DNA of 57,216 bases from a virus. The position numbers were made by a program, and so were the translations under genes. This document shows, in pieces, positions 1 to 57,216 of the stretch. Where the stretch lies: IMG/VR virus record IMGVR_UViG_3300009194_000013, positions 1-57,216 of that record. The stretch is one strand, 5' to 3'. Within the stretch, counting starts at the first letter, position 1. Every line of letters begins with the position of its first letter. Below the pieces are notes generated by a model, which saw only the letters and a list, made by a program, of their open reading frames with translations, was not told the origin of the DNA and made no database searches.

Positions 1-123
1 CTGCATCACTGCATCACTGCATCACTGCATCACTGCATCACTGCATCACTGCATCACTGCATCACTGCATCACTGCATCACTGCATCACTGCATCACTGC
101 ATCACTGCATCACTGCATCACTG
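1..123. repeat. 8-bp tandem repeat array, left end
   Basis: Fifteen perfect copies of the unit CTGCATCA followed by CTG, running straight from base 1. The same array in the same orientation closes the window at 57094-57216. Bases 1-119 equal bases 57098-57216 exactly. It lies upstream of the small terminase gene, where packaging sites are usually found. The real copy number cannot be read here because the array touches both ends. Confidence 0.95.
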
Positions 124-12584: not shown

Positions 12585-13042
12585 GCAAAGCGAAGACACT
12601 GGCCGCGAACATCTCAGCGCGTCTTAGCGAGATACGCATCGCCAACGGCTATCTGACTGACATCGGCGCGTCAGTCAAGCGCGGCAAGCTGACTTTCAAC
12701 GAAAGTGAAGCGCCGTGCATCGTCTTGGTTGAAGGCGACGACGACCCAATTGAGCAGCAGAATCTGCAATGCCGACTTAGCTTGAGCTTTATTGCTGAAG
12801 GTCATGACGTATGCGATCCAGAAAACCCCAACGACAAGATTCACGACATCGCGACTGACATCAAGAAAGCCATCTTTGGCGATGACACGACGTTCGGTGG
12901 ACTGGTCAAACCGAATCGCAATGCCACCCCCGGTCTGCGCTATACCGGCAGCAGCAAAGGTGTGCGCGAGGACGGCTCAAAGCTGGTGTCATGTGGCATT
13001 CAATTTGAATGTGAGATCGTAGAAGACCTGTCGAACCCGTAA
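12581..13042 (+). CDS. Tail terminator protein (gpU-like)
   Basis: 153 residues. It begins [25 protein letters not shown] and contains [36 protein letters not shown] and a [12 protein letters not shown] end (each shown in part). This is the alpha/beta pattern of tail terminator proteins: an N-terminal helix, a strand carrying a drug-efflux-like VEGDDDP, and a long helix before the last strands. Such proteins cap the tail tube at its final length and join it to the head. Position between gpZ-like and tail tube genes supports this. It overlaps the previous gene by ATGA. Confidence 0.7.
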
Positions 13043-13126
13043 CGCAATTCTCCCGCAGTTGTTTCGGGTTCGTCATTACTTACACTTGCGGGAACTCTTT
13101 AGAGCGACTTTTTTGGAGATTCAATC

Positions 13127-14091
13127 ATGAGCAACGCACGCGGTTTCTTGGGGCTGGCGATCTGTACATCGCCCGTTATGAGGGTGGTGTATTCTTGGAC
13201 TACGAAGGCCCTTTCGAGTGCCGCAAGTTTGAGATCAAGCCCAACGTCGATCTGAAGGAACTCGTTTCCAAGGGTCGCTTCACCTACGGTCAAACCATTG
13301 AATCGGTTCCAGTGCCGCAGCCGTCTGACCTGACAGTCGAATTGTCCGAAGTCAACAAGACCTCCCTGGCCATCGCCTTGCTGGGCACCACCTCAAGCGT
13401 GGCTCAGACATCAGGCACTCTGACCAACGAAGCCATCGTCTCTTCGATTGACAAATGGGTTGCGCTGTCGAAGGTGTCTCTTACAGGTGCTCAAACAGTC
13501 GCTGGTGGTGCAGTCACCGCCGCAGTTACCGGCGCGATCAGCGGCACGACCTTGACGGTGAGCGTTGTTTCTTCCGGCACTTTGTCTGTCGGTCAGGCCA
13601 TTTCCGGCTCAGGCATGACAGCCGGTACACGCATCACCGCATTCCTCACAGGCACAGGTGGCACAGGCACCTATACGGTCAACAACAGTCAGACTTTTGC
13701 GAGCGCTTCGATCACAGGCGCGGCGGGTGCCACCTACGTTGAGGGTGAAGACTTCATCGTGAACAAGACACTGGGCTGGATCAAAGCCCTGTCTAGCGGC
13801 GACATCATCGACGATCAACCTTTGAAGGTCACGACCACTTACGGCAGCGTGAGCGGCGTTGAAATCAAGGGCTCGACACAAGCGCAGGTTCGCGCCAAGT
13901 TCAAGCTGGATGGCGTGAACTTCGTTGACAACGCAAGCTGCATCGTCACCGTGCATGAAGGCATCATCGCCTCGGACAGCGCCTTCGACTTCCTGGCCGA
14001 CGACTTCAACACCGTCACGATGCCTGGTCGCATGAAGACACCTACCGGCTTCATTGAGCCCTACACGGTTCGTCTGCTGGACGCAGCATAA
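13127..14091 (+). CDS. Major tail tube protein, reading frame broken near codon 9
   Basis: About 321 residues once the frame is restored. TTTTGGAGA lies 8 bases before the ATG at 13127. That frame reads MSNARGFLG and then ends after about 43 codons. Shifting by -1 at the GGGG run (13150-13153) gives [21 protein letters not shown] split across the junction and stays open to 14091. The body has the tail tube pattern [30 protein letters not shown] and a C-terminal [11 protein letters not shown] and [14 protein letters not shown]. Residues from about 125 to 195 of the restored protein are an inserted Ser/Thr/Gly-rich module ([33 protein letters not shown]) found in many virion proteins as an Ig-like decoration. 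One missing G by error, a true mutation or programmed slippage could explain the break. A fallback TTG start at 13195 has no ribosome site. Confidence 0.8.
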
Positions 14092-14131
14092 GTCGTACAC
14101 GACAAGTCCCTGACGGCTAGGCCGACAGGCG

Positions 14132-14170
14132 CGGGGTGTCAGGGTAATTCCTGGCACCCCGTTTTCTTTT
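14132..14170 (+). terminator. Strong terminator between tail tube and tape measure genes
   Basis: Twelve-base arms (14132-14143 and 14150-14161, one G-T pair) around a 6-base loop, followed by TTTTCTTTT. It lies inside the late operon, after the tail tube gene, which must be highly expressed, and before the tape measure gene, which is needed in few copies. Partial termination would set that ratio. Confidence 0.85.
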
Positions 14171-51294: not shown

Positions 51295-51921
51295 ATGAGA
51301 CAAAAGACACACGGGATTCTTGAAGATGTAGCGGCTGAGATCGGGTACACAGCTACGTGCCTACTGGTCGATTGGTTCGGTGGTATTGGTCAGTTGTATG
51401 TACCGACTGAGGTCAATGAGGATCATCCAATCACGAAGGTCATTGGCGTGCCCGCAATGAATCGCCTGGTCAAGTTGTTTGAGGGATCAGACGTGCATGA
51501 GCGATTCGTTTGGCTCAACCAGAACGAGCAGCGTGACATTGCACGCAGAGACCGATTGATTGCAGCGCTCTTGTTCATGGGTCTTGGTGCCAAGCAGATC
51601 GGCGTGCTCTCAGGCATGAGCGAGCGGCATGTATTCCTGGCCCGTCAGCGTGTCGAGCGGCTTGGTATCTTGCCGATGATCCTGAGTCGTTCAGGTGTGC
51701 GCAAGCTGCATATCGTTCCGATTGAGAACGACGAGCTTGAAGAATCGCCGGATGAAAGTTATACAGAAAACCCAGGGGCAAAACCCAGGGACAAAACCCA
51801 GGGGCAAAACCCAGGGGCAAAACCCAGGGGCAAAGACTCTGCTTGTGTGGCCATGCGCGATGCGTTGACGCAGACAAAGCCACCTGTGAAGAAAACTCGG
51901 CGCGTGCGTCGTAAGTATTGA
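51295..51921 (+). CDS. Mor-like transcription activator
   Basis: 208 residues. The Mu Mor/C pattern is present: GILEDVAAEIGYTATCLLVD, WFGGIGQLYVP, DHPITKVIGVPAMNRLVKLF (dimer domain, residues about 8-65), then DIARRDRLIAALLFMGLGAK and QIGVLSGMSERHVFLARQRV as HTH (about 80-120). Mor activates middle genes in Mu; here it may switch on late genes. The tail after residue 155 is low complexity (NPGAKPRDKTQGQ repeats) encoded by five 13-bp repeats, and ends basic (KKTRRVRRKY). It starts with GAAAGGTAGG upstream and lies just behind the 20-bp inverted repeat. Confidence 0.7.
   Translation: MRQKTHGILEDVAAEIGYTATCLLVDWFGGIGQLYVPTEVNEDHPITKVIGVPAMNRLVKLFEGSDVHERFVWLNQNEQRDIARRDRLIAALLFMGLGAKQIGVLSGMSERHVFLARQRVERLGILPMILSRSGVRKLHIVPIENDELEESPDESYTENPGAKPRDKTQGQNPGAKPRGKDSACVAMRDALTQTKPPVKKTRRVRRKY
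51768..51832 (+). repeat. Five 13-bp tandem repeats inside the Mor-like gene
   Basis: Unit AAACCCAGGGGCA, five copies head to tail, the second with one change (G to A). Thirteen is not a multiple of three, so successive copies are read in different frames and three copies make one peptide period (NPGAKPRDKTQGQ). Gain or loss of one copy would shift the frame of the last 30 residues. Confidence 0.95.
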
Positions 51922-57093: not shown

Positions 57094-57216
57094 ATCACTG
57101 CATCACTGCATCACTGCATCACTGCATCACTGCATCACTGCATCACTGCATCACTGCATCACTGCATCACTGCATCACTGCATCACTGCATCACTGCATC
57201 ACTGCATCACTGCATC
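57094..57216. repeat. 8-bp tandem repeat array, right end
   Basis: Same unit and orientation as 1-123 (CTGCATCA in phase from 57098). It ends in the middle of a unit (…CTGCATC), and bases 57098-57216 equal bases 1-119. Either one array split by circular assembly or a direct terminal repeat. Confidence 0.95.

Follow-up and report, generated by a model that had tools for sequence, protein, structure and literature searches.

Loss of one G from a five-G run breaks the reading frame at the start of a phage major tail protein gene in a metagenome record

Programmed -1 frameshifting in phage tail assembly genes is known in the form of the lambda G/GT type, where it takes place in chaperone genes and relies on a conserved heptamer located close to the end of the gene. 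A homologue of the tail gene considered here is found in a cultured relative, Curvibacter phage PCA1 (OP588919.1, UZZ64515.1), which shares both the body and the N-terminal motif of the protein and has the same order of tail completion, tube and tape measure genes as the window, i.e. the whole analysed stretch of 57,216 bases, an IMG/VR virus record. Unlike in the window, the tail gene of PCA1 is intact, with N-terminus and body in a single frame. Furthermore, the PCA1 protein is devoid of an insert of ~72 aa present in the middle of the window protein (window positions 13510-13720, residues about 125-200). This insert resembles a segment known from tail fibre families (phrog_38233), is common to the relatives L003 and L004 and is missing from L005 and L006 as well as from PCA1; it looks like a mobile surface domain.

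The gene body in the window matches phrog_807, a major tail protein with an Ig-like domain, with an E value of 1.3e-28, the match spanning residues 2-298 (positions 12-238 of the 256 of the profile) and hence most of the protein. The location agrees with this family as well, the gene lying between tail completion and tape measure genes with a tail terminator/phrog_5185 gene upstream and the tape measure gene downstream. A strong hairpin of 14 bp, followed by a U-rich tail, lies in the gap that separates the tail tube gene from the tape measure gene (14131-14162, z -4.76) and is likely a terminator or attenuator restricting tape measure expression.

All features at the start of the tail protein gene described in the following are on the plus strand. 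A Shine-Dalgarno-like GGAG, read in the sequence at 13115-13118, is located 8 nt ahead of ATG 13127, the true start codon of the gene. The frame opened by this ATG (13127-13255) is truncated, encoding only 42 aa before the stop at 13255, while the same ATG opens an intact 321-codon gene in the record L002. The body of the major tail (tube) protein (13153-14091) is encoded in the -1 frame, which is without stops from 13015 to 14091 and has the TTG at 13195-13197 as its first in-frame start codon. Viral relatives share 64-71% of aa residues with the body near its N-terminus. Both the ribosome site with its ATG and short frame and the tube body in the -1 frame had been reported in a preliminary description of this DNA, and both are borne out here. 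The same description joined the two frames at the GGGG run at 13150-13153. Four Gs are indeed present at this position, and the missing base is placed within the run because a near-identical record differs there. At the protein level alone, however, the join may fall at any point between TTT (13144) and the G run, as TTT-CTT-GGG-GCT also yields FLGA, and the tblastn match to PCA1 in the body frame begins at 13144.

The near-identical record, IMGVR_UViG_3300027365_000065 (22,483 bp), was retrieved in the scan for relatives of the window. Compared base by base with window positions 1-22,479, it differs solely by one extra G at the run 13150-13153. With five Gs, the tail protein gene of this record is uninterrupted and encodes 321 aa in a single frame, and its N-terminus is exactly the one that the preliminary description had restored by joining the frames. 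An error in this record instead of in the window is unlikely, because, of all positions in 22.5 kb, an insertion at random would need to hit one of the dozen or so bases at which it restores the frame found in the relatives. G/C runs of at least five bases occur 15 times in the intact contig, the one in the tail gene among them, so that the site is an ordinary homopolymer. A scan of viral contigs allowing for 0-3 bases in the run returned the five-G record and no second four-G record, and scans of genome contigs and plasmids gave no four-G record, the window's own record being one that such scans may omit. A literature search for the sample id belonging to the five-G record yielded only a paper that deals with an unrelated MAG of the same metagenome.

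Relatives were also aligned, as the preliminary description had suggested. In an alignment of five homologues beginning at the start codon, M..R.F.GAG.LY is shared in a single frame, and N-terminus and body are found in one frame in 77 of the 80 viral-contig records that were fetched. The near-identical record is part of this set, as are some near-duplicates that come from related samples, and the set is biased towards an intact N-terminal motif by the N-terminal peptide patterns used in the scan. Automatic scoring found the motif and a start codon in one frame with the body in 74 of the 80; L074-L076, whose variant FLGGGDLY was missed by the motif, were added, L074 having been read out in full and L075 and L076 in part only. 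Nucleotide differences to relatives within the body gene concentrate at third codon positions (93, 65 and 167 at positions 1, 2 and 3 in comparison with L003), so the body frame is under normal coding constraint. The three exceptions carry lesions unrelated to that of the window: in L031 (1380-1620) the whole start region of the tail protein gene is absent, in L033 (about 1492-1520) a GTG first codon is followed by AGT and by TAA as third codon, an in-frame stop, and in L094 (1440-1900) an internal deletion is accompanied by a frame change. About 4% of the fetched records thus have some lesion of this gene, which provides the background for judging the window. A frame break at the same Gly codon was found in none of the other records among the 80 scanned.

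Alternatively, translation could truly start at TTG 13195, in which case the upstream ATG frame would be irrelevant. The element GAGGGTGG located ~10 nt upstream of this TTG speaks for such a start. However, a conserved N-terminal block, with an ATG start in nearly all relatives, lies upstream of 13195, and in the intact record the same TTG is found inside the open gene. The TTG is not the native start, as the relatives conserve residues that precede it, and an initiation at this codon is next to impossible, the least credible of all readings considered here.

A second alternative is that the ribosome joins the two frames into the full protein by slipping by -1, in a programmed or casual manner, at G_GGG (or U_UUC). 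A lone Gly codon on GGGG can re-pair following a -1 slip, and a weak potential RNA hairpin (13164-13192) is situated 10 nt 3' of the G run. This hairpin is slightly to moderately more stable than shuffled sequences, with a z of -1.77 and 11 of 200 shuffles being as good; it is equally present in the intact record, whereas other relatives fold differently, and it is therefore not conserved. The sequence GGT TTC TTG GGG CTG harbors no slippery heptamer X XXY YYZ in the zero frame, leaving only the single-tRNA options G_GGG or U_UUC, and there is no Shine-Dalgarno-like element 10-14 nt upstream; the Shine-Dalgarno itself, at ~33 nt upstream, is too distant to stimulate slippage. Moreover, the commonest tail protein of the virion would hang on an inefficient event at codon 9. 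Neither the otherwise identical record nor the 77 fetched records or PCA1 require a slip, and the frame overlap is not conserved in relatives, the near-identical record and 76 further fetched records being in one frame. Taken as a whole, slippage of either kind is extremely improbable. Programmed frameshifting is very unlikely, and this option of the preliminary description is effectively ruled out by the otherwise identical five-G record and the in-frame relatives. More improbable still is the particular case of a real four-G phage variant that would make its tail tube by -1 glycine tRNA slippage at codon 9 with the help of the downstream hairpin.

In contrast to slippage, the other two options of the preliminary description, an error in the record or a real mutation, are supported as a class, since the relatives are in frame and the otherwise identical 22.5-kb record carries the fifth G. 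A non-programmed loss of one base, be it an error or a real deletion, is almost certain.

Within this class, the contig ends are of relevance. The two ends of the window (1-123 and 57094-57216) consist of the same ATCACTGC octamer array, with 123 bp and 15.4 perfect copies each, and the near-identical 22.5-kb contig terminates in the same ATCACTGC array. That both contigs end in this array is read as the mark of a k-mer-limited short-read assembly; a circular or circularly permuted genome, broken at a microsatellite exceeding the assembly word, is probable. Another repeat, five copies of the 13-bp unit AAAACCCAGGGGC, is found at 51767-51834, in the 3' part of a late-activator-like frame (51295-51921).

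Short-read assembly of this kind rarely miscounts runs of five, which renders a real mutation credible, namely a genuine one-base homopolymer deletion in one phage genome or sub-population, resulting in a defective tail tube gene. Its carrier would be a dead or declining variant, or would be complemented by wild-type phages. Five-G runs are natural hotspots of polymerase slippage, the sole difference in 22.5 kb sits precisely at the G run, and the unrelated lesions in 3 of 80 fetched records affect the same gene. On the other hand, the major tail protein gene is presumably essential, and no other decay was seen in the window. Across the rest of the window, no gene matched by the PCA1 proteins changes frame internally, so the record is not generally indel-rich and the genome is otherwise intact where comparable. 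An integrase match was not obtained among the proteins tested in the window, so that a phage whose tail gene is broken could hardly persist as the dominant genome. Searches of the window for Rfam families and tRNAs gave no matches. A lethal variant, with its major tail gene broken, would not be expected to dominate a population that matches the intact record in all other respects, and a consensus error is therefore favoured: judged from these comparisons, it is the somewhat more probable origin of the missing G, and a real but rare deletion is a serious though less probable one.

The record is without one G of a five-G run at codons 8-10 of the gene for the major tail protein, most likely owing to an error in sequencing or assembly of the metagenome contig. 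The real gene of the phage starts at ATG 13127 and reads straight through, with no special translation mechanism at work. The importance of the case is confined to annotation: the proper entry is a major tail protein gene from ATG 13127 with a suspected one-base deletion in the record, rather than a short form started at the TTG or a case of recoding.

With the lambda G/GT type of programmed -1 frameshift the window has in common the -1 relation of two frames in the tail module. Contrary to the chaperone genes of lambda, with their conserved heptamer near the gene end, the break in the window is located at codon 9 of the tube gene, where there is neither a heptamer nor conservation. Observed directly are the one differing base and the uninterrupted frame of the near-identical record and the relatives, and the one-base loss in the window is an ordinary one with no mechanism to explain.
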